From NCBI GenBank assembly GCA_946482625.1, contig CAMLSH010000086.1:1-10338 (forward strand): a DNA stretch of 10,338 nucleotides, in the 5' to 3' direction. Shown one piece after another: positions 234-8,862 of the stretch. Both the position numbers and the translations under genes were made by a program. Every line of letters begins with the position of its first letter. The stretch's first letter is position 1. The notes below the pieces were generated by a model. It did not search any database. It worked only from the letters and a program-made list of their open reading frames with translations, and was not told the DNA's origin. The DNA comes from an uncultured Opitutaceae bacterium. GTDB lineage: Bacteria > Verrucomicrobiota > Verrucomicrobiae > Opitutales > Opitutaceae.

Positions 234-491
234 TCAGCTCTTCACCGGACTACCGGGCGGGTTCATCTTCGGAGGCGTGATCGTCGGTGGCACGATTCTG
301 GGCGGAATAATTTTGGGAGGAACGATGACTGGCACCACGATCGCCGGCGGTTTCAGTATTGGCGGCACAGGTACAGGTTCGCGCAACACGGGCGGTTGAA
401 CGACGGGGGGCCGCATTTCTGGCGGAGTCACCCGGGGAGGAATCAGCACCGGTGCGGGCGGCAGTGGCGGGATCGGCACATCGGAACTCAT
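234..491 (-). CDS. 85-aa proline-rich PPxxx repeat protein
   Basis: Unrecognised family. After MSSDVPIPPLPPAP the protein is almost wholly built of five-residue units beginning with PP followed mostly by hydrophobic or basic residues (PPRVT, PPEMR, PPVVQ, PPILK, PPKII, PPRIV, PPTIT, PPKMN). It should form a polyproline-II rod. It has no signal peptide or membrane segment. At DNA level the repeat shows as GG-G doublets every 15 bases on the plus strand. The ATG at 491 has no Shine-Dalgarno sequence; the gene follows the nucleotidyltransferase-like gene by 40 bp and is the last member of the array. The regular amino-acid pattern, kept in this frame only, argues that the gene is real even though it is short. 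A structural or linker role is inference. Confidence 0.6.
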   Translation of the reverse strand: MSSDVPIPPLPPAPVLIPPRVTPPEMRPPVVQPPVLREPVPVPPILKPPAIVVPVIVPPKIIPPRIVPPTITPPKMNPPGSPVKS

Positions 492-531
492 GACGCGGCG
501 TCCGGGTGGAGAAACACAGTGAACCGGGAGA

Positions 532-2538
532 TCAGGAGGTGATTATTTCCTTCAACAATTCGTATTGGGAGCTGATGCCGGTCTTGATCAGGTAATTGTC
601 GATGAGCGCGGCCATGACCTTGCGCTGGTTTGCCAGCTCGTCAGGTGGACAGCGCGGAATGGCCGCTTCGCCCTCGGCGGGGCTGGTCAGGAACGGTAGC
701 TCCACCGGAGAAGCCGTTGTCAGTGTGAAGACGGCGACGGGGCGCTCGGCGTTGAAGATGACGAAAATGCACTCGTGGGTCGTGCTATGCGGGCGGGTGG
801 TCTGGAGGAGCTTGTGCCGGACGGTGAAGTTTGCGGCGGCGGGCAGGGCCGGAGCGAGGGTCGCGAAGCGATTGAGGAAGCGGCCCGTTACCAACTGCAA
901 CTGGTCGTGGTTGGCGACCCGGACGACAAGGGCCTGGTCGATGCCGGAGAGACGGACGTGAGTCGCGTTGAGATAGGCGTTTTCCAGAAGCGTATCGATG
1001 AGGACGAGGTCGTCGGAGTATGCGTAGATGCCGGCAAGAGGAACGACGGCACCGGCGGCGCTGAACGAGGCGGCGAGCCAGTTGAGATAAAAGGTGCCGT
1101 TGAGACGGACACGGGCCTGGTGGAAGGCCTGCACGGTTTCCCGGCGTGGTTTGCCTTCAGGCGTGAAGACCGGGAGGGCTTGCTGCGCGGCGGTCTGGCT
1201 TTCGACCTCGGCCATCATTTTCCACGCGAAAAGGTAGGGGTTGGGGTTCGGGTTGCCAGCAACCGGTGCGGCGGGCACTCCGGCAACGAGCCCGACGCGA
1301 ATAAGTTCTGGGCTGATCCGATTGTATACTGGCCCTACGGCCGGAGGAGTGGGAAGGGTTTCAATGCGCCGGCCGACGAAGGTGGCGGCGATGTTCATGA
1401 TCGCGACGGGTGCCAGGTAATTGTCCCAGATGAGTTCGAAGCGCCTCAGGCGTTTGTGGATCTTGTCGGCGTGGCGGGAACTGCCATCGGCGACCTCGCA
1501 CATCATCGTGAGCAGCTCGCGAAGGTGATAGCGGATGTCGGGCAGGGGCAGGTCGCGGCCGATGGTTTCGTCGATGGAGTTGTCGGGCAGGCGCGCATCG
1601 ACGGTGATAACTGCGTCGGTGAGGTTGATGTGGTTTTGCGCAAGCTCCTCCCAGACGGTGATGGCTTCGATGGTGTCACGACGCGGGATGGTGACGTCGA
1701 TGAGCTCCATGAGGAGCGGCCTCGTGACGGCGGGGAAGCCGTTGACCTCGGTGTGCATGTGCCAGGCATACCCCACGCGGTAGAGGTCGAAGTGTCTGAT
1801 GGCGGCGTTGAACACATGGCCGGGCATCCACTCAGGATGGGCCATGTTCTGATCACCGAGACGCTGGCGGGTGTCGGTCCAGAGACCCACTTCGTCGCGG
1901 TCATAGATTTTGCGGATGGTCTGCGGGTCGTCGTAATCGAGCGTGTAGATGCCGCCGTTGAAGGGAGGAGCCGGCGGCGGGGTTGGCATGTGTGGCGGCG
2001 GTGGTGGAGGCGGCGGCACGGGCGGCGGGTTGGCCCAGAGGAATTGCGTTTGCTCGACGAAGTTACGCGGAGGCGGCGGTGGGGGCGGCGGGCCGTACAG
2101 GAGGTATTCTTCCTCGCGGAGGGCGATGCGCTGGCTGACCTGGCGGAACTCGTCGAGCACGATGTCTTCGACGAGGCCGTAGACGAGCCGTTGCAGCGGG
2201 AGCGGGGCCCAAGGATCGATCATGACCTGGGTGTCCCAGTCGGAATCGCCGCCGCCGAGCCGGGTGGCTTTCGGACCGGCGAGGTTGCAGATGCAGTCGA
2301 AAGCGTTGCCTCCTTTCATGTAGAAGCGCACGAGCGGGCGGTCGATGCGCACATGGTGTTTCTCAAACAGCACCAGGTTGAGCACTGAGAATCGGCTGTA
2401 GAGATTGGAGAGCGCGACAATCACCTCGCCGCGGATCGCGCTGCCGAGGTTGCGGTCGAAGCCACCGGAGTTGATCACTCCGGTGAGCCAGGCGCTCGCT
2501 TCGCGCCGGATTTTGTATTGTTCTTCGGTTTCGGCCAT
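532..2538 (-). CDS. Nucleotidyltransferase-fold protein with polyproline inserts, 668 aa
   Basis: I choose the ATG at 2538 (MAETEEQYKI) over an in-frame start 66 codons upstream. That extension is arginine-rich and unlike a folded domain, overlaps the end of the upstream gene, and AGGA lies 7 nt before the ATG at 2538, the only clear Shine-Dalgarno in the array. Residues 74-80 read MKGGNAF and residues 98-105 read DSDWDTQV. This fits the nucleotidyltransferase signature GG[ST/N] followed by DhDh (D100, D102); the third acidic residue may be E278 or D281 in MELIDVTIPRRD. The family transfers NMP groups to nucleic acid, protein or small molecules; the substrate here is unknown. Polyproline runs at residues 150-157 and 171-193 sit between the two halves of the putative active site. 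The C-terminal half (about 360-668) is unassigned. A polymerase-like, poxvirus/giant-virus-type NTase or a toxin are the main alternatives. Confidence 0.65.
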   Translation of the reverse strand: MAETEEQYKIRREASAWLTGVINSGGFDRNLGSAIRGEVIVALSNLYSRFSVLNLVLFEKHHVRIDRPLVRFYMKGGNAFDCICNLAGPKATRLGGGDSDWDTQVMIDPWAPLPLQRLVYGLVEDIVLDEFRQVSQRIALREEEYLLYGPPPPPPPPRNFVEQTQFLWANPPPVPPPPPPPPHMPTPPPAPPFNGGIYTLDYDDPQTIRKIYDRDEVGLWTDTRQRLGDQNMAHPEWMPGHVFNAAIRHFDLYRVGYAWHMHTEVNGFPAVTRPLLMELIDVTIPRRDTIEAITVWEELAQNHINLTDAVITVDARLPDNSIDETIGRDLPLPDIRYHLRELLTMMCEVADGSSRHADKIHKRLRRFELIWDNYLAPVAIMNIAATFVGRRIETLPTPPAVGPVYNRISPELIRVGLVAGVPAAPVAGNPNPNPYLFAWKMMAEVESQTAAQQALPVFTPEGKPRRETVQAFHQARVRLNGTFYLNWLAASFSAAGAVVPLAGIYAYSDDLVLIDTLLENAYLNATHVRLSGIDQALVVRVANHDQLQLVTGRFLNRFATLAPALPAAANFTVRHKLLQTTRPHSTTHECIFVIFNAERPVAVFTLTTASPVELPFLTSPAEGEAAIPRCPPDELANQRKVMAALIDNYLIKTGISSQYELLKEIITS

Positions 2539-2600
2539 GGCGGTTCCTGGGGCGGGACGGCGGTGGAGCGGACGAGCGTTGCGGCAACGTCGGGCGTGGA
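2539..2600 (-). promoter_or_regulatory. Spacer with the only clear ribosome-binding site of the array
   Basis: In the 62-bp gap upstream of the 668-aa gene, the minus strand carries AGGA seven bases before the ATG at 2538. No other start in the array has a comparable Shine-Dalgarno match. I see no terminator hairpin in the gap, so transcription probably continues through it. Confidence 0.45.
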
Positions 2601-3164
2601 TCAGGTGGAGGGCGCGTGCAAATCTGGACGGGAGGAGAAGCGGGCGCGGATGGACGGGCCCGGATCGCGTGGAGGAGTGGGAGCGACGGGCCGCAGCGGG
2701 CCGCTCAGAGCAAGCGCGAAGGGCCGGCACGCGCACGAGGCTTCGAGGACGCAGCCGTCGGAGCTGCCGACGACCTGGATGGAAAGTTCGCCCAGCTGGC
2801 GGGTGTGCGTCATCTCGCCGATGAGGGCAACCGCAGGGCTGGAAAGCAGGACGCCGAGATTTTTCAGGACAGTGATCGACGGCGTGAATACAGCGGCGGG
2901 CAAACCATGAACAACTCGTTTGGCGCCGGGGCGGACGGCGACCTGCAAGGTGCTCGGATCGGGAAAAGAAATCAGCACGTCGCCGTTGCCGGACAATTCA
3001 AGGCCGCTTGTCAGCTGGAAGACGGCGTTCTCAAACTTCACCGTGGCCACCGTGGCGAGCGTGTCGGCGGCGAGCGCGTTCTGACGTACCGCGGCAGCGA
3101 CGATGGACCGCCGGATATGCAGGCGCAGCGTCGGAAGCGGCTGGTTGGTGGCCGCCGAACTCAT
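2601..3164 (-). CDS. Unrecognised 187-aa protein
   Basis: The ATG at 3164 overlaps the TGA of the preceding gene as ATGA, which implies translational coupling and supports this start. The N-terminus (about 10-40) looks helical. Residues about 41-155 alternate short hydrophobic stretches (VKFENAVFQL, DVLISF, TLQVAV, ELSIQVV) that suggest a compact beta-sandwich-like domain. Three cysteines cluster at 138, 144 and 146. The tail from about 157 is proline- and arginine-rich and probably disordered. There is no signal peptide and no family I recognise. Its place between RebB-like and nucleotidyltransferase-like genes suggests an accessory of the R-body locus, for example an adaptor or chaperone; that is inference only. 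Confidence 0.65.
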   Translation of the reverse strand: MSSAATNQPLPTLRLHIRRSIVAAAVRQNALAADTLATVATVKFENAVFQLTSGLELSGNGDVLISFPDPSTLQVAVRPGAKRVVHGLPAAVFTPSITVLKNLGVLLSSPAVALIGEMTHTRQLGELSIQVVGSSDGCVLEASCACRPFALALSGPLRPVAPTPPRDPGPSIRARFSSRPDLHAPST

Positions 3165-3571
3165 GGCTGCGCGGGATGCGGATCAGAGGAATGCGTGGCT
3201 TCCTTGAGCACGGCAGAAGCGATTTCCGCCGGGACCGAGATCGGCCCGAGCACCGGCGCAATGTCTGACACCACCGTGGCGACTCCATGCACGGCTTTGG
3301 CGACTTCATCCCAGCCATGATGCGGCTTCGCGGCAGGAACGGTCGTGTTGGGCGAGGTGTTGGTATCAGCTGCGGGCGCAGGTGGTGAGGAAGCTCCTCC
3401 ACCGAACTCAGCCGGGATCGATGAAGACCGGAGGTCATTCAAGGCCATCGCGGCGATGGCCTGGCCAATGGTGTCTTCGCTGGCCGCGGTGGTATCAAAG
3501 GAAGGAGCCGACGTGACGGCAGTCTCTTCCGGCATCGACTGCTGGGTTTCTGAGGGAGTGGATGAGTTCAT
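3161..3571 (-). CDS. Unrecognised 136-aa Ser/Thr/Pro-rich protein
   Basis: I place the start at the ATG at 3571 (MNSSTPSETQ); a GTG three codons upstream is possible but neither has a Shine-Dalgarno. The first 85 residues are rich in S, T, A and P and probably disordered, apart from a short helix around 33-50 (SEDTIGQAIAAMALNDL). A conserved-looking amphipathic to hydrophobic helix pair follows at about 87-125 (WDEVAKAVHGVATVVSD, then PVLGPISVPAEIASAVLKEA). This hydrophobic part is glycine/alanine-rich, as in proteins that insert into or coat membranes, but too weak to call a transmembrane segment. The stop overlaps the next start by four bases. No family recognised; an R-body accessory by context. 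Confidence 0.6.
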   Translation of the reverse strand: MNSSTPSETQQSMPEETAVTSAPSFDTTAASEDTIGQAIAAMALNDLRSSSIPAEFGGGASSPPAPAADTNTSPNTTVPAAKPHHGWDEVAKAVHGVATVVSDIAPVLGPISVPAEIASAVLKEATHSSDPHPAQP

Positions 3572-3631
3572 GGGGAACACGCGCTGAGAGGAAGGTGAAC
3601 AAGCGCAGATCTCGTGAGGGTGCTGACGAGA

Positions 3632-4117
3632 TCAGCTAGGAATGGTCTCTGGCGTTGGTGAAGGTGCCGGAGCGGGCGCTGGATTGATGGCTGGAGTCGG
3701 AGTCGCGGGTGACGACGGAGTCGAAGGCGTGCTGGCAGGCGTAGCCGGCGGCAGCGTGGTTCCAGGGCCACCTACAACCGCCGGGGCCGGCGCAGGAGCC
3801 GGGGGCGTTGGAGGGAGCGGAAGCGGCGGCGGAGTCGTGCCACTTGTTGGTGGGGGCGGCGGAGGAGGCGGAGGCACCGGCGGTTTCGGCGGTGGGGGCA
3901 CCACGGCTCGCACGGACAGCATGCGAGCGCACGCGCTGGTCACTGCGGCGGCACCGAGCATCTGCGCGCTGTTCTGGGCGGAGATGGCGTTGTACATGCC
4001 CATGCCGACGGTCTCGGTCATGACGGCGTTGAGCATCGCCTGGGTTTGCGAGGGCGCGGTGTTGACCGTGAAAAATTGGGCGAGCCGGACGGAGTCGGTG
4101 ATCTGGCTGTTGGTCAT
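3632..4117 (-). CDS. RebB-like protein fused to a proline-rich tail, 161 aa
   Basis: I use the ATG at 4117 (MTNSQITDSV); a TTG two codons upstream is the alternative. Residues 3-70 follow the RebB pattern of this locus: NSQITDSV at the start, then alanine-rich helices with NAxSAQ (NAISAQNSAQ) where the canonical copies have NATTAQQQ. The C-terminal RebB motif LYS[IL]DTAS is replaced by ACARML, which is close to VCARMI in the gene at 6026-6232. From about residue 72 to the end (about 90 residues) the protein is P, A, T and V: first runs of up to nine prolines, then PAPAPAP and TPSTPSSPATP. The tail looks disordered and extended. A plausible role is a cap, tether or surface-displayed subunit of the R-body ribbon. 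It lies 34 bp after the DUF4157-like gene. Confidence 0.75.
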   Translation of the reverse strand: MTNSQITDSVRLAQFFTVNTAPSQTQAMLNAVMTETVGMGMYNAISAQNSAQMLGAAAVTSACARMLSVRAVVPPPPKPPVPPPPPPPPPTSGTTPPPLPLPPTPPAPAPAPAVVGGPGTTLPPATPASTPSTPSSPATPTPAINPAPAPAPSPTPETIPS

Positions 4118-4151
4118 AAACAAAGCAGAGGTTGAGGATTAGCTCCGCGCG

Positions 4152-5630
4152 TCAGGAGGACACCGGAGCGGCGGTCAGATTAAATTGGCTCAAGGTCAGG
4201 CAGCCCTGCGCATCGAGCATAAGACGGGCATCGCCGTCCGGGCCCGTGAAACGGTACCAGCGCGTGACACCGTCTTGGCAGAGCTGGATTTGCGGATTCT
4301 CCGCTGAAGTCGCCCGGGCCGCGGCTTCGGGCTGCAACATGCCGCCGACGCGCAGGAGACATTCTCCCATGCGCCCGCCTGCGTCGGCAGGCAACGGCTG
4401 GGTGAGCGGGATGGCCCCATTCGTCGCACAAGCGGCGATCGCCACGCCGATCGTCGGGAAGCCGACGAAGGGCGACTGCCGCAGAAACGAAGCGAGCGCG
4501 TCGAGCACCACCCAATCCGTCGAGCCCGGGGCGACGAAGGGGCATTTCAAATAATCTAAGACGAGCGGCGAAAATGCCGTCCACAATGCCGGCACATCGC
4601 CAGGGTCCACGCCGGCCGTGCTCCCGGGCGCAGGCGCGATCGCGTTGAGATAAAAGGCGTACGCCGCGCCAAATTCCGGCGTGCTCTGGGCAACACTCGC
4701 GGCGAAGCGCGCCGCAGCGGAGGCATCGGCATCGGATACCGAAGGATCACGCGCCGTGACGAACGTATCGAATAAACCGATCTGTTCAGCCAGACTCGCA
4801 GTTGTCGCCGTGAGTTGGCCAGCCACTCCGAGTGTTCCCAGCGTGCGGGCGAGCTGGCCGAAATCCGCTTCCGCGTGGAAATTATTTTTCGCCAGCACAG
4901 CCTGGGCAGCCGGCGTGAGCTGGCCGAGTTGCAGGCTGGCCGTGAGATTGCCCATATCGGGATCGGGCAAGGACAAGATCACGGATGGCGCGATGCGCAG
5001 CCCGGCGGATTGGAAGAGCGCGACCGATGAGCCGTGCAGGCCGAATTGGATTTGGGCGATCAGATCGACTTCACTCTCGGCCGGATAGATCGGGCCGTTC
5101 AAACGAAGCGCCCATTGCAACCAGTCCGGACCTTGCGGGATGAGCGAGAGCACTTGCTGGAAGTTTTGCGAAAACTCCGCCGCCTTGCTCCGTGTATCTC
5201 CCGCCACCGAGATGAGCGGCTGGAGGACTGGCGGCCGAGACCGAGCGCGCTGCGGGGCGCGCAGGCGCAGGACTTCGCCCCGCAAAATCGCGCGGGCGCC
5301 CGCCTCGGCCTCTTCTTCGAGTTCAGCCGAGCGACAATATGGCAGACCGGCGAAATGCGTATCCGCGTCCACACGACCCGCGCGTTGCTGGAACACATGC
5401 ACGAGTTCGTGGGCGAGCACGCCGAGCAGAGTCCCGGCGTCGCGTTCCAGAAGTTCATCCCGCACTAAAACCACGTCGCCAAACGTCAGCGCGGCGGCGG
5501 GCAGCTCGGACAAAAACACAATGCGCACACCCGACAAATCGGCGTCCACCGCCTGCGCCAGCTGAAGACGGAGCCGGGTGAGAGAGGATGCGGAGCGGGT
5601 GCCGGAGAGGATCATCGCGGGGACGGGCAT
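4152..5630 (-). CDS. DUF4157/eCIS-core-like putative metallopeptidase, 492 aa
   Basis: The N-terminal 110 residues match the DUF4157 (eCIS_core) layout: a helix, a strand with AVDADLSGVRIVF, then DVVLVRDEL and the motif VLAHELVHVFQQ. H74, E75 and H78 form the zinc-binding HExxH, and the acidic helix SAELEEEAEA (101-110) can supply the third ligand. DUF4157 domains are known in proteins tied to extracellular contractile injection systems, often ahead of variable toxin-like regions. After an Arg/Pro-rich linker (about 122-137) come about 350 residues that I do not recognise: a helical part up to about 400 and a Cys-containing beta-rich end (450-492). There is no signal peptide. The ATG at 5630 overlaps the previous stop as TGATG. 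Processing protease for R-body assembly, or R-body-delivered effector, are both possible. Confidence 0.75.
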   Translation of the reverse strand: MPVPAMILSGTRSASSLTRLRLQLAQAVDADLSGVRIVFLSELPAAALTFGDVVLVRDELLERDAGTLLGVLAHELVHVFQQRAGRVDADTHFAGLPYCRSAELEEEAEAGARAILRGEVLRLRAPQRARSRPPVLQPLISVAGDTRSKAAEFSQNFQQVLSLIPQGPDWLQWALRLNGPIYPAESEVDLIAQIQFGLHGSSVALFQSAGLRIAPSVILSLPDPDMGNLTASLQLGQLTPAAQAVLAKNNFHAEADFGQLARTLGTLGVAGQLTATTASLAEQIGLFDTFVTARDPSVSDADASAAARFAASVAQSTPEFGAAYAFYLNAIAPAPGSTAGVDPGDVPALWTAFSPLVLDYLKCPFVAPGSTDWVVLDALASFLRQSPFVGFPTIGVAIAACATNGAIPLTQPLPADAGGRMGECLLRVGGMLQPEAAARATSAENPQIQLCQDGVTRWYRFTGPDGDARLMLDAQGCLTLSQFNLTAAPVSS

Positions 5631-5977
5631 CAGTTGCTCGTGGGGAAGTTTTTAAGGATGTCCGTGGCGTTCTTGCCGACGGTGGCGAGTGTGCCGGCCG
5701 CGCTGGTCACGATGCCGGTGGCTTTGTCGATGGCCTGGAGATACTCGGCATCTTTGGTGGCGAGGAATTGCGCGAGGGCCACGCCCATCGCGGTGGTCGC
5801 CATGGTGGTGGTGTTGCGCAGGCTGTCGGTCGCGTCCTGCACGGCGATGGCCATGGATTGGGCGACGGACTGGTAGGCTTTCCCCGCGCCTTGCATCACG
5901 ATGATGTCGGGCGTGAGCGTCGCGTTTTGAGAGACCACGATCGCGTCGGAAACAGCCGAAGAGGATTGTCCATTCAT
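5630..5977 (-). CDS. Divergent RebB-like protein with C-terminal extension, 115 aa
   Basis: The ORF aligns with the canonical copies through VSDAI (for ITDAV), AYQSVAQSMAIAVQDAT (for LYQATAQALSNAAHNAT) and TTTMATTAMGVA (for TAQAATTMGVA). The APAMAMGN segment is replaced by PDIIVMQG and the LYSIDTAS end by QFLATKDAEY. It then continues about 40 residues past the usual end with ATGIVTSAAGTLATVGKNAT, an alanine/glycine/threonine-rich helix. It may be a specialised ribbon subunit or a terminus-forming protein. Its stop codon overlaps the start of the DUF4157-like gene (TGATG), so the two proteins are probably made in linked amounts. The start ATG at 5977 has no Shine-Dalgarno. Confidence 0.75.
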   Translation of the reverse strand: MNGQSSSAVSDAIVVSQNATLTPDIIVMQGAGKAYQSVAQSMAIAVQDATDSLRNTTTMATTAMGVALAQFLATKDAEYLQAIDKATGIVTSAAGTLATVGKNATDILKNFPTSN

Positions 5978-6025
5978 GGAGTTGGAACCGGTTAAACGTT
6001 AGAGCTGTGGAATGAGTCCTGGCGG

Positions 6026-6232
6026 TCAGGCCGGGGGTTTGAGGACGGCGATCATGCGGGCGCAGACGACGGTCGTGGCCGAGGCGGCGACGACCTGCAT
6101 ATTCTTCTCGGCGGTCACGGCGTTGTTCATCGCCAGGGCCAGCGACTGGGCCATCGCGACGTAGGTCCACGCCATGCTCACGGCGGGAGCGGCTCCGACG
6201 GAAAGAGCGAACAGATCTGCCGGGCCGGCCAC
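6026..6232 (-). CDS. Short divergent RebB-like protein, 68 aa (GTG start)
   Basis: The only plausible start is a GTG at 6232. The core SVGAAPAVSMAWTYVAMAQS followed by LALAMNNAVTAE aligns column by column with VLGDAPAMAMGNLYQATAQA-L-NAAHNATTAQ of the canonical copies. The N-terminal ITD-VTQAN segment is missing: the frame stays open upstream but reads Pro/Arg-rich residues with no RebB likeness. The protein ends VVCARMIAVLKPPA, matching the CARML region of the proline-tailed RebB-like protein but stopping just as the prolines begin. It could be a small regulatory or capping subunit, or a 5'-damaged gene; the gap of 116 bp to the upstream gene would leave room for lost N-terminal sequence. Confidence 0.6.
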   Translation of the reverse strand: MAGPADLFALSVGAAPAVSMAWTYVAMAQSLALAMNNAVTAEKNMQVVAASATTVVCARMIAVLKPPA

Positions 6233-6348
6233 GCTGTGAAAAGGCGGAGATCTTCGTATCGGAACCGGACCGACACCGCGCCGGCCTGATTTCAGGAATG
6301 CAGGCCGGCGGGCGTCGCGGTGACGCGGCGCGGATCAACCGGGGAAAC

Positions 6349-6615
6349 TCAGGCGAAGACTTTCGCCGTCGCCTCTCCGGCCGAGGCCGTGTCGAGCGAG
6401 TACAGGGTGGTGATGCCGGAGGTCATGGCCGCTTGCGCGGTGACCGTGGCTTGTTGTTGCGCGGTGGTGGCGTTGTGCGCGGCGTTCGAAAGCGCCTGCG
6501 CGGTGGCCTGGTAGAGGTTGCCCATCGCCATCGCCGGCGCGTCGCCAAGAACTTTGACGTTGGCCTGCGTGACGGCGTCGGTGATCTGGGAGTTAACTGC
6601 GGTTGGATATGCCAT
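6349..6615 (-). CDS. rebB: RebB-family R-body subunit, copy 6 (88 aa)
   Basis: Canonical RebB (killing-trait) protein: MAYPTAVNSQITDAVTQAN, then VLGDAPAMAMGNLYQATAQA, then NATTAQQQ and the closing LYSLDTASAGEATAKVF. The protein is all helical with conserved alanines and lacks any signal peptide. Its N-terminal 56 residues are identical to copy 5, while its C-terminal third (TSGITTLYSLDTASAGEAT) goes with copy 4. It carries AAMTSG where the others have AATT. It ends in VFA, one residue shorter than most copies, like copy 2. The gap to copy 5 is only 38 bp. Confidence 0.95.
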   Translation of the reverse strand: MAYPTAVNSQITDAVTQANVKVLGDAPAMAMGNLYQATAQALSNAAHNATTAQQQATVTAQAAMTSGITTLYSLDTASAGEATAKVFA

Positions 6616-6842
6616 GATAGTGTCCGTTCAGGAGTTGAGGGATGAAGGGCGGCTCAGGAGCCGAGGATCTTCGTGGTGGCGATGCCGGTGGAGGCAGTGT
6701 CGATGGAGTACAAGGTAGCGACGCCCATGGTCGTCGCGGCCTGCGCGGTGATGGCGGCCTGTTGCTGCGCGGTCGTGGCGTTGTGCGCGGCGTTCGAAAG
6801 CGCCTGCGCGGTGGCCTGGTAGAGGTTGCCCATCGCCATCGC
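6467..6842. repeat. 68-bp perfect direct repeat in rebB copies 5 and 6
   Basis: Bases 6467-6534 recur exactly at 6775-6842. The repeat covers the middle of each gene, from the AAHNAT codons to the PAMAM codons. Flanking 3' portions of the two genes differ much more, which marks the edge of a recent duplication or gene-conversion tract. Confidence 0.85.
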
Positions 6843-6923
6843 GGGAGCGTCGCCGAGGACTTTGACGTTGGCCTGTGTGACGGCGTCGGTGATCTGGGAG
6901 TTAACTGCGGTTGGATATGCCAT
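6654..6923 (-). CDS. rebB: RebB-family R-body subunit, copy 5 (89 aa)
   Basis: Canonical RebB protein, identical to copy 6 over its first 56 residues, but with a C-terminal part (TTMGVATLYSIDTASTGIAT, then TKILGS) that goes with copy 3. This A-type end differs from the B-type end of copies 4 and 6. The ATG at 6923 is preceded by the AT-rich stretch CAAAATATAACTCAT shared with copy 2 and has no Shine-Dalgarno. Copies 3/4 and 5/6 therefore look like two rounds of an A-B gene pair. Confidence 0.95.
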   Translation of the reverse strand: MAYPTAVNSQITDAVTQANVKVLGDAPAMAMGNLYQATAQALSNAAHNATTAQQQAAITAQAATTMGVATLYSIDTASTGIATTKILGS

Positions 6924-6989
6924 GATGAGTTATATTTTGGATGTCGTTAATGACCGGTGGGTCAGAGGTGTTAATTTCTACAAGGCGGT

Positions 6990-7259
6990 TCAGGCCCCGA
7001 AGATCTTGGTGGTCGCTTCACCGGCGGAGGCCGTGTCGAGCGAGTACAAGGTGGTGACGCCGGAGGTCGTCGCCGCTTGCGCGGTGACTGCGGCCTGCTG
7101 TTGCGCGGAGGTGGCGTTGTGCGCGGCGTTCGCGAGGGCCTGAGCGGTGGCCTGATAGAGGTTGCCCATCGCCATCGCAGGGGCGTCGCCGAGGACTTTG
7201 ACGTTGGCCTGCGTGACGGAGTCGGTGATCTGGTTATTAACTGCGGTTGGGAATGCCAT
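6990..7259 (-). CDS. rebB: RebB-family R-body subunit, copy 4 (89 aa)
   Basis: Canonical RebB protein with MAFPTAVNNQITDSV at the start, the full VLGDAPAMAMGNLYQATAQA core, NATSAQQQ, and a B-type end (TTSGVTTLYSLDTASAGEAT, then TKIFGA). The sequence TSAQQQ is shared with copies 2 and 3, whereas copies 5 and 6 have TTAQQQ. The leader upstream of its ATG (TCAAAAACTAAATCATC) resembles those of copies 2 and 5. It lies 82 bp after copy 3. Confidence 0.95.
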   Translation of the reverse strand: MAFPTAVNNQITDSVTQANVKVLGDAPAMAMGNLYQATAQALANAAHNATSAQQQAAVTAQAATTSGVTTLYSLDTASAGEATTKIFGA

Positions 7260-7341
7260 GATGATTTAGTTTTTGAGGGTGTACGTTCAGCGGGAGAAAA
7301 CGGCCGGGCGGGACGCCGGAGCGCTCAAGCGGCCGGCAAAT

Positions 7342-7611
7342 TTACGAGGAAAGGATTTTCTTGGTCGCGATGCCGTCGGACGCGGTGTCGATCGCATAAA
7401 GCGTGGCGACGCCCATCGTGGTCGCGGCCTGTGCGGCGATCGCAGCCTGCTGCTGCGCGGAGGTGGCGTTGTGTGCGGCGGTCGCGAGCGCCTGGGCGGT
7501 CGCCTGGTAGAGATTGCCCATCGCATTGGCGGGGGCAGAGCCGAGAACCTGGACGTTGGCTTGCGTGACGGAGTCGGTGATCTGGTCGTTGACGGAGGTT
7601 GGAAAGGCCAT
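7342..7611 (-). CDS. rebB: RebB-family R-body subunit, copy 3 (89 aa)
   Basis: Canonical RebB protein: MAFPTSVNDQITDSVTQAN, VLGSAPANAMGNLYQATAQA, ATAAHNATSAQQQ, and an A-type end (TTMGVATLYAIDTASDGIAT, then KKILSS). Two positions that are near-invariant in the neighbours differ: GDAPAM becomes GSAPAN, and YSIDTAS becomes YAIDTAS. It is the only copy with a double lysine near the C-terminus. It follows copy 2 after 50 bp and has no recognisable Shine-Dalgarno. Confidence 0.95.
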   Translation of the reverse strand: MAFPTSVNDQITDSVTQANVQVLGSAPANAMGNLYQATAQALATAAHNATSAQQQAAIAAQAATTMGVATLYAIDTASDGIATKKILSS

Positions 7612-7661
7612 GGTGAGGAGCGGTTATTGAGTTGAGCGGACGAGAAAGTGGGTGGACGCGA

Positions 7662-7928
7662 TCAGGCGAAAACCTTCGCGGTGGCTACGCCGGTGGAAGC
7701 CGTGTCGAGCGAGTAAAGAGTCGAGATGCCCTGAGTCGTCGCCGCCTGCATCGTGACGCCATTTTGCTGCTGGGCACTGGTGGCGTTATGCGCGGCGTTC
7801 GCGAGCGCCTGGCTGGTGGCGACAAACAGGTTGCCGAGAGCGACCGCCGGTGCGTCGCCGAGAACCTTGAGGTTGGCTTGGGAGACCGAATCGGTGATCT
7901 GGTCATTAACTGCAGTTGGATAGGCCAT
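7662..7928 (-). CDS. rebB: RebB-family R-body subunit, copy 2 (88 aa)
   Basis: Canonical RebB protein, more diverged in the middle than copies 3-6: GDAPAVALGNLFVATSQALA in place of GDAPAMAMGNLYQATAQALA, and QNGVTMQAATTQG before the conserved STLYSLDTASTG. These changes keep the helix pattern but alter the exposed faces, so it may occupy a distinct place in the ribbon. The ATG at 7928 follows CAAAATATAACTC without a Shine-Dalgarno. A 115-bp gap separates it from copy 1. Confidence 0.95.
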   Translation of the reverse strand: MAYPTAVNDQITDSVSQANLKVLGDAPAVALGNLFVATSQALANAAHNATSAQQQNGVTMQAATTQGISTLYSLDTASTGVATAKVFA

Positions 7929-8043
7929 GAGTTATATTTTGAGGTGGATGAGTTGTGTTGTGGTGAGAGGCATCGGTCGGCGTAGCAGCGGTCGGCGAAG
8001 TATCCGCCGGTGCGGAAAGCGAAGGGAGAGAGTGTGTGTTAAC
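7929..8043. other. Longest spacer inside the rebB array (115 bp)
   Basis: The gap between copies 1 and 2 contains a direct repeat (GGTCGGCG at 7975-7982 and again at about 7990-7997) and an imperfect hairpin CGGCG-aagtatc-CGCCG near 7994-8010. No T run follows, so this is not a clear terminator. It might attenuate or process the transcript between copy 1 and the rest, but the evidence is weak. Adjacent to copy 2 lies the AT-rich CAAAATATAACTC. Confidence 0.3.
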
Positions 8044-8313
8044 CTAACCGCCGAAGATCTTGGCCGTGGCGCGGCCAGTGGAGGCGGTGTCGAGTGAGTA
8101 GAGCAGAGCCACGCCTTGGACGGTGGCCGCCTGCGCGAGGATGTTGGCCTGCTGCTGCGCGAACGTCGCGTTGTGCGCGGCATTGGCGAGGGCTTGGGCG
8201 GTGGCCTGATAAAGGTTGGCCATGGCGACGGCGGGCGAGTCACCGAGGATGGCGAGGTTCGCCTGCGTGACCGCGTCGGTGATCTGGCTGTTGACTGTCG
8301 TGGGGTATGCCAT
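8044..8313 (-). CDS. rebB: RebB-family R-body subunit, copy 1 (89 aa)
   Basis: First structural gene of the array: MAYPTTVNSQITDAVTQANL, AILGDSPAVAMANLYQATAQ, ALANAAHNATFAQQQANI and an end reading TVQGVALLYSLDTASTGRAT, then KIFGG. Distinctive changes are GDSPAV for GDAPAM, MANLY for MGNLY, and FAQQQ for [ST]AQQQ. The VALLYS(I/L)DTAS end is the form I associate with RebB family members from other bacteria. The start lies 27 bp after the AraC-type gene, so the two are very likely on one transcript. It is the only array member terminating in TAG at its end. Confidence 0.95.
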   Translation of the reverse strand: MAYPTTVNSQITDAVTQANLAILGDSPAVAMANLYQATAQALANAAHNATFAQQQANILAQAATVQGVALLYSLDTASTGRATAKIFGG

Positions 8314-8340
8314 GGGAAAAGAGGTACTCGTTGGAGAACG

Positions 8341-8862
8341 TCAGCCCGCCACACAGGCCACGGCCTTCCGGCGGCCGCCTGGCGAATCGGCCCCGGAGCC
8401 TCCGCGCCAGTCGACACCCGTGACGACGGACTGGCTGATCGCAGAGGATGTCACCCGGTTGCGCGTGGCCAGTGAGGCCGCGTATTCCGAACAAGTCACC
8501 CCGTGGTAGATCTTAAACTCTCGGCAGAACGAGGAGACCTGCTGAAACCCCAAGGCGTACGCGACCTCCTTCACCGAGTGCATGACCTCGATCAACTCAC
8601 CCGCTTTCGCCATTCGCAGATCACGCAGCCATTGCTGAGGAGAACGAGCAAAGTGTCGCTTCACATAACGTTCGACCTGCCGCTGGCTGATACCGAGATG
8701 CCGGACAAGATTCGCGGTGCGAAAACCAGACAGACGGGCGAGTTCGATCCACTGCGCCTGGTCGTAAAAAGAGATTTTGGTGATGAGTCGTCCCATAACG
8801 TCGAGAGCTAGGCGTTGGGTGAAGTGTTGCCTGGGCTCCGCAAAAGAACGCCTGCGCGCCAT
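8341..8862 (-). CDS. Small AraC-type HTH transcriptional regulator
   Basis: Residues about 36-128 form an AraC/XylS DNA-binding domain: first helix-turn-helix in LARLSGFRTANLVRHLGISQ plus RQVERYVKRHF, the linking SPQQWLRDLRMAKAGEL, and the second in SVKEVAYALGFQQVSSFCRE with the typical closing FKIYHGVTCSEY. At 173 aa it has no room for a ligand-binding domain; the tail from about 130 is Ser/Arg/Gly-rich and probably disordered. The ATG at 8862 gives the full ORF; an internal ATG at 8796 (MGRLITK) is almost as good, since neither has a clear Shine-Dalgarno. It leads the R-body array 27 bp ahead of the first rebB and is the obvious candidate regulator, perhaps autoregulating the long upstream region. 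Confidence 0.88.
   Translation of the reverse strand: MARRRSFAEPRQHFTQRLALDVMGRLITKISFYDQAQWIELARLSGFRTANLVRHLGISQRQVERYVKRHFARSPQQWLRDLRMAKAGELIEVMHSVKEVAYALGFQQVSSFCREFKIYHGVTCSEYAASLATRNRVTSSAISQSVVTGVDWRGGSGADSPGGRRKAVACVAG

Follow-up and report, generated by a model that had tools for sequence, protein, structure and literature searches.

The window analysed here, a stretch of 10,338 nucleotides from an uncultured Opitutaceae bacterium (assembly GCA_946482625.1, contig CAMLSH010000086.1), carries an R-body (reb) locus; R-bodies are coiled ribbons of protein with which certain bacteria kill protists. From one named relative (P0015), the sequence itself points to a probable member of Opitutae. 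Fifteen open reading frames (ORFs), g1 to g15, are located on the minus strand between positions 234 and 8862; they encode an AraC-type regulator, nine Reb-like proteins and five others. Their spacing ranges from a 4-base overlap to a 116-base gap, with overlaps at g9/g10 and g12/g13. An earlier note on this DNA had described 14 consecutive minus-strand genes; the run on one strand with short gaps and overlaps stands, and the count is 15. The flanking features, a methylenetetrahydrofolate reductase gene and the end of a PDZ-domain gene, are both on the plus strand. As set out below, the locus is a reb cluster of a published kind (Group 1), with a metallopeptidase-like domain fused to one of its conserved partner proteins and a nucleotidyltransferase-fold protein, g14, downstream. 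The features are as follows.

8341..8862, minus strand: g1, AraC-type regulator, 173 residues (Pfam HTH_18, 71.9 bits)
8044..8313, minus strand: g2, canonical RebB, 89 residues (PF11747, 100.6 bits)
7662..7928, minus strand: g3, canonical RebB, 88 residues (PF11747, 101.8 bits)
7342..7611, minus strand: g4, canonical RebB, 89 residues (PF11747, 97.0 bits)
6990..7259, minus strand: g5, canonical RebB, 89 residues (PF11747, 106.4 bits)
6654..6923, minus strand: g6, canonical RebB, 89 residues (PF11747, 109.0 bits)
6349..6615, minus strand: g7, canonical RebB, 88 residues (PF11747, 104.9 bits)
6026..6232, minus strand: g8, short divergent Reb of HP1.4 type, 68 residues (PF11747, 51.0 bits, profile positions 12-64 of 68; relatives in Group 1 loci)
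5630..5977, minus strand: g9, HP1.2-type protein, 115 residues (35-53% identity to 13 reb-locus proteins; no passing Pfam family)
4152..5630, minus strand: g10, N-terminal eCIS_core/DUF4157 metallopeptidase-like domain (about residues 1-130) fused to HP1.1 (about residues 139-492) (PF13699, 33.7 bits)
3632..4123, minus strand: g11, long divergent Reb of HP1.3 type with proline-rich tail, 163 residues (PF11747, 51.4 bits at residues 8-71; relatives in Group 1 loci)
3161..3580, minus strand: g12, unassigned, 139 residues (no Pfam or NCBIfam family)
2601..3164, minus strand: g13, unassigned, 187 residues, close relatives only (4 matches)
532..2538, minus strand: g14, nucleotidyltransferase-fold protein, 668 residues (motif, predicted fold, co-occurrence with reb)
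234..491, minus strand: g15, proline-repeat ORF, 85 residues, coding doubtful (no family over cut-off; lowest third-position GC)

Eight of the 15 ORFs exceeded the Pfam cut-off of 24 bits for the RebB profile PF11747: g2 to g7 with 97-109 bits, g8 with 51.0 and g11 with 51.4. The six canonical RebB genes claimed in the earlier note are thus confirmed. It had added three divergent RebB-like genes, of which g8 and g11 hold at about 51 bits; g9 is not RebB by Pfam and is Reb-like only via its HP1.2 family. Pairwise protein identity among the six canonical Rebs is 67-88%, and they are therefore not a recent array. Coiled ribbons would be the expected product of this locus.

In the description by Raymann et al. 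(2013, PMC3583457), reb clusters of Group 1 are marked by HP1.1 (about 360 residues), HP1.2 (about 110-120 residues), and HP1.3 and HP1.4, two distant Rebs of about 170 and about 60-80 residues. When matched to the families at these positions in other loci, g8 corresponds to HP1.4, g11 to HP1.3, g9 to HP1.2 and g10 from about residue 139 to HP1.1; these assignments are anchored by size, Reb similarity and an Azospirillum plasmid. An A. brasilense plasmid is named in that paper as a carrier of the four HP1 proteins, and the fetched A. argentinense plasmid has matches to all four families. With HP1.1, HP1.2, HP1.3 and HP1.4 all present, the locus belongs to the reb clusters published as Group 1, and much of what had been noted as an extended locus is already known. 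The yardstick of that note, the small Caedibacter rebA-D locus, was the wrong comparison, since g8, g9, g11 and the C-terminus of g10 are published Group 1 partners. The clusters of Caedibacter taeniospiralis (rebA-D) and Pseudomonas aeruginosa (rebP/rapA) share RebB-family ribbon proteins with the window, but the descriptions consulted do not give them the HP1 set, and the P. aeruginosa PA14 cluster is described with other regulators (rcgA, fecI2) and another partner (rapA).

The window shares with the Group 1 clusters (PMC3583457; S1/S2/S3 of PMC13430693) several canonical rebs together with HP1.4, HP1.3 with its proline-rich tail, HP1.2 and HP1.1. It differs in the N-terminal DUF4157 domain on HP1.1 and in partner order, while g14 and the downstream enzymes are not among the features given in the parts of those two descriptions consulted. 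Dorr et al. (2026, PMC13430693) report that secondary Reb groups S1-S3 co-occur with group 1 and that one Verrucomicrobiota taxon has three or more reb genes; they state that HP1.1 was ignored in their work. The order HP1.1-1.2-1.3-1.4 is described as occurring 'often' (PMC3583457) and is hence not defining. The usual order in the other loci studied here is four rebs, HP1.4, HP1.3, HP1.2, HP1.1; the window has 1.4-1.2-1.1-1.3, against 1.4-1.3-1.2-1.1 in linked g14 loci where these genes were recognised. HP1.2 also lies ahead of HP1.3 in loci L032, L050 and L055. HP1 families were recovered in loci collected with g14 as bait, first by single-sequence and Reb-profile searches and then by profiles. 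The Group 1 chassis was found in Alteromonadales, Cellvibrionaceae, Xanthomonadaceae, Burkholderiales and Azospirillum; a Nitrospinota genome was recovered by reb genes and g14 only.

The N-terminus of g10 matches PF13699 (eCIS_core/DUF4157) with 33.7 bits against a cut-off of 22 and contains the HExxH motif as HELVH, which bears out the DUF4157-like putative metallopeptidase proposed from the sequence. The C-terminus aligns with a protein of about 340-366 residues from proteobacterial reb loci. Thirteen g10 relatives have both parts; of five scanned for PF13699, P0002, P0003 and P0013 pass and P0005 and P0008 fall below the cut-off. In one relative, a partial RebB replaces DUF4157 on HP1.1. 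The structural model of g10 has a predicted local distance difference test score (pLDDT) of 88. Foldseek alone gave nothing firm; after re-alignment the fold matches concern mainly the N-terminus, which matches nearly only zinc-metallopeptidase-type chains among the 50 matches listed. Searches of PDB sequences with the g10 and g14 alignments returned chance matches only. DUF4157 marks toxins of extracellular contractile injection systems (eCIS) (PMC8213781). As in those toxins (PMC8213781, PMC11297309), a second domain in g10 follows an N-terminal DUF4157 that contains HExxH; this partner domain differs, being the R-body protein HP1.1. None of the 17 window ORFs scanned, which cover 10 kb only, is an eCIS sheath, tube or baseplate gene.

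A protein search with g14 gave 58 matches, one of them the window's own, and 34 of the 58 were aligned. K75-G-G, S99-D100-W-D102 and D281 are invariant in this alignment. The g14 model (pLDDT 87.8) finds its best fold matches among nucleotidyltransferases, including MenT3; motif and predicted fold both support the nucleotidyltransferase-like protein suggested earlier. No Pfam, NCBIfam or PADLOC family was found for g14, and thus no sequence-family match to the toxin nucleotidyltransferases of AbiEii/MenT type. It differs from the MenT3/TglT (Rv1045) toxin in its 668 residues with two nucleotidyltransferase-like halves, in having no Pfam match and in having no antitoxin identified. A listed g14 start at 2736 was rejected in favour of 2538, the point at which relatives begin. 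In Azospirillum, a 1174-residue protein after HP1.1 (L049:11261-14785) gives two colinear weak matches to g14 (9.0 bits, against 2.7 for the best of 2000 shuffles; E 0.011 among 379 ORFs) and lacks the D-x-D motif. From its sequence, it is possibly a pseudo-enzyme version of g14.

A contig scan of genomes yielded 24 loci with g14 (L001-L024), and RebB genes are present in 23 of the 24 genomes. Among these loci, L019 is the g14-containing cluster of Hydrogenophaga taeniospiralis, a species that makes R-bodies. The loci were found with two motif patterns, so that each has at least one of K-G-G and SDWD by construction; motif conservation was therefore judged from the 34-sequence alignment only. 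With g14 as bait, this set is biased. In 13 loci g14 is encoded on the same strand as the rebs and downstream of them, and in two more (L007, L014) the cluster is cut by a contig end: g14 shares with HP1.2 and HP1.1 a contig that begins at this point, and the rebs are at the end of another contig. In L004 and L006 both rebs and g14 are at contig ends, which fits an assembly break but does not prove it. They are about 31 kb apart in L017, on a contig of 810,833 bases (two contigs of equal size taken as one), and in L003 and L021-L024 on contigs of unequal length, hence on different ones. No reb was found in the L018 genome. In a rough tree with long branches, unlinked g14 copies from Stenotrophomonas maltophilia and Alteromonas a30 are interspersed with, or adjacent to, linked copies.

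Two family samples, which include genomes already among the g14 loci and are not fully independent of them, were scanned as a baseline for this count. Among 200 genomes of the first, RebB was found in 5, HP1.2 in 3 and g14 in 2; among 247 of the second, the figures are 55 (54 over the cut-off), 5 and 4. Co-occurrence of g14 with reb has Fisher p values of 5e-4 and 2e-3, respectively. Over both samples (447 genomes), every HP1.2 genome has reb genes and every g14 genome has HP1.2; g14 is present in 6 of the 8 HP1.2 genomes and in 0 of the 439 others. In the two HP1.2 genomes without g14, the locus runs into the contig start (G361) or is a complete cluster with other genes (G119). A search for HP1.2 across the order found it in 3 of 394 genomes. 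The proposal that all genes form one functional system is thereby borne out in part: in both samples every genome with g9 or g14 also has reb genes, but this support does not extend to g12, g13 and g15 as general partners.

These data also bear on the view that the downstream genes are unrelated neighbours sharing a strand by chance. The few or absent relatives of g12, g13 and g15 in the searches made would fit it; the confinement of g14 and HP1.2 to reb genomes of the samples and the same-strand position of g14 in the loci above speak against it. Chance clustering of g8-g11 and g14 was rejected on these grounds, and the view, which we regard as very improbable overall, is largely refuted for those genes and stands only for g12, g13 and g15. 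A phage reading was likewise not supported: none of 50,697 phage records matched g6, and six g14 peptide patterns, whose reach is limited to close relatives, were all absent from viral contigs.

The downstream contents of other reb loci vary; the families named here were chosen by inspection, without a random-neighbour control. An Ala/Gln-rich protein follows the HP1 genes in most loci examined. Six loci of Alteromonadales and Sessilibacter (L001, L015, L016, L027, L033, L041) have PtuB-like HNH proteins, which form one family by sequence; in L015 and L016 the protein is divided between two ORFs. PADLOC PtuB matches were found for L001 and L015, the two tested, with L015 below the NCBIfam PtuB cut-off. 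This recurring protein is kin of a Septu/retron defence nuclease. Lysozyme-like GH25 proteins occur in L015 and L033; L008 and Eleftheria have both a Nudix and an Rv2525c-like protein, and L011 has Nudix. The G119 cluster has an Rv2525c glycosidase-like protein and a PF04185 phosphoesterase that is closest to phosphocholine phospholipase C but below the cut-off of that model. In genome M269 a free DUF4157 gene, the only one found there, lies 4 kb from the rebs. On a plasmid of Vibrio sp. THAF191d (L050:9366-14755), the reb genes and two HP1.2-type genes are followed by a 1187-residue ORF with a VasX N-terminal region (E 6.9e-22), which passes the NCBIfam model for the type VI secretion system (T6SS) effector BTH_I2691 with 156 against 150 bits; the window itself has no protein of this type. 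Two related 297-residue proteins with membrane-like segments come next. Immunity proteins of VasX are membrane proteins, and the Vibrio protein with these two paralogous neighbours as a toxin-immunity set is a lead. Locus L055 (genome G628) has two HP1.2-type genes and a 372-residue downstream protein without a clear family.

As far as searched, three observations are new: the N-terminal DUF4157 fused to HP1.1 in g10, the tie of g14 to this cluster type, and the effector- and enzyme-type genes at downstream positions of other reb loci. In the open-licence literature no paper was found on DUF4157 together with an R-body, on VasX with R-bodies, or on R-body, toxin and nucleotidyltransferase together.

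The downstream enzymes could serve to shut down and lyse the producing cell, so freeing the ribbons. The GH25 and Rv2525c-like wall-hydrolase-type genes in reb loci fit this suicide reading, as do the PtuB-like nuclease and the MenT3-like fold, which belong to systems acting in their own cell. It is nonetheless improbable: the Pfam scan recognised no lysin among the window ORFs, and proteins of the VasX/BTH_I2691 type, like phospholipase C, are known to be exported. Somewhat less doubtful, though still unlikely, is a role in assembly or maturation, in which HP1.1, the DUF4157 peptidase-like domain and g14 process Rebs or control ribbon assembly in the producer and none is delivered. HP1.1 to HP1.4 recur in most Group 1 loci, whereas toxins usually vary; Reb subunits could be trimmed by a peptidase; and another reb partner, RapA of PA14, shares its localisation with the ribbon (PMC8322103). 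Against this, neither g14 nor DUF4157 is a constant feature of Group 1 clusters, and T6SS-effector-type and phospholipase-type proteins take downstream positions elsewhere.

The best explanation, to which we would give a little short of an even chance, is an R-body weapon locus that combines a Group 1 ribbon chassis with exchangeable payload and release genes. It builds on what the analysis shows: which genes are present and to which families they belong, their co-occurrence, the variation in downstream contents, and the predicted folds. The reb genes would build the coiled ribbon, with g8, g9, g11 and the HP1.1 part of g10 as its conserved Group 1 partners, and the downstream genes would form an interchangeable set of enzymes for payload and release. 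For this lineage, g14 and the DUF4157 domain on HP1.1 would make up most of the payload. HP1.1 may act as a cargo adaptor, its DUF4157 domain riding on or processing ribbon-bound cargo as a release or processing module; wall hydrolases may serve release, and g14 possibly blocks translation by modifying tRNA or another target. Once a grazer ingests the cell, the ribbon would uncoil and rupture it, and the proteins would be delivered. We infer the cargo attachment, toxicity and target of the payload proteins, which would be carried along by the ribbon and be lethal.

In grazers, acidification makes R-bodies unroll; a toxin is presumed and still described as unknown (PMC13430693). RebA, RebB and RebC alone make ribbons but do not kill (PMC3583457); delivery of species-specific toxins by R-bodies was raised as a speculation in the same paper. 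The R-body genes of PA14 promote ribosome cleavage and translational block in worms (PMC8322103). Concrete candidate genes can now be named for the long-sought killing toxin. One of them, g14, occurred in the samples only in genomes with HP1.2; in addition, an R-body protein is now linked to a domain typical of contractile-injection toxins. One observation weighs against the weapon explanation and lowers its standing slightly, along with that of the wider proposal below, and raises that of the assembly reading: no HP1.1 could be recognised in the Vibrio locus. The same is true of Marinomonas and G628, and these three are therefore Group 1-like, not full Group 1 loci. More speculative, and in our view rather doubtful, is the wider proposal that Group 1 R-bodies are delivery polymers with an interchangeable toxin module and HP1.1 as cargo adaptor, a counterpart of contractile injection systems that recruited the same kinds of part (DUF4157, VasX/BTH_I2691-type effectors with membrane-protein partners, nucleases, phospholipase, nucleotidyltransferase).

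Neither g12 nor g15 has a Pfam or NCBIfam family over cut-off or a relative found, the large protein database not having been searched for either, and g12 matched nothing in the fetched loci or in the slot proteins (those at downstream positions) of other loci. It sits roughly where other loci have the Ala/Gln-rich protein; no similarity was shown. Third-position GC is lowest in g12 (0.66) and g15 (0.65), against 0.70-0.87 in the other ORFs, and g15 may not be a gene. For g13, which did not match slot proteins of other loci, the four matches include a 99% copy, P0074 (longest contig 10,758 bases). It differs at two residues, and the locus was therefore apparently assembled more than once. Two other g13 relatives have longest contigs of 8181 and 5405 bases, the same as two g10 relatives.

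Of 10 ORFs tested near reb loci, including a slot gene in L055, 7 encode regulators that combine an AraC helix-turn-helix (HTH) with an AAA part of sigma-54 type; such a regulator also occurs in Eleftheria. The window regulator g1 has the HTH part only. Shine-Dalgarno sequences are not obvious by eye at the reb starts in the window. The sequence AAAATATAACTC is found at 7929-7950 and 6924-6945, immediately upstream of the starts of g3 and g6.

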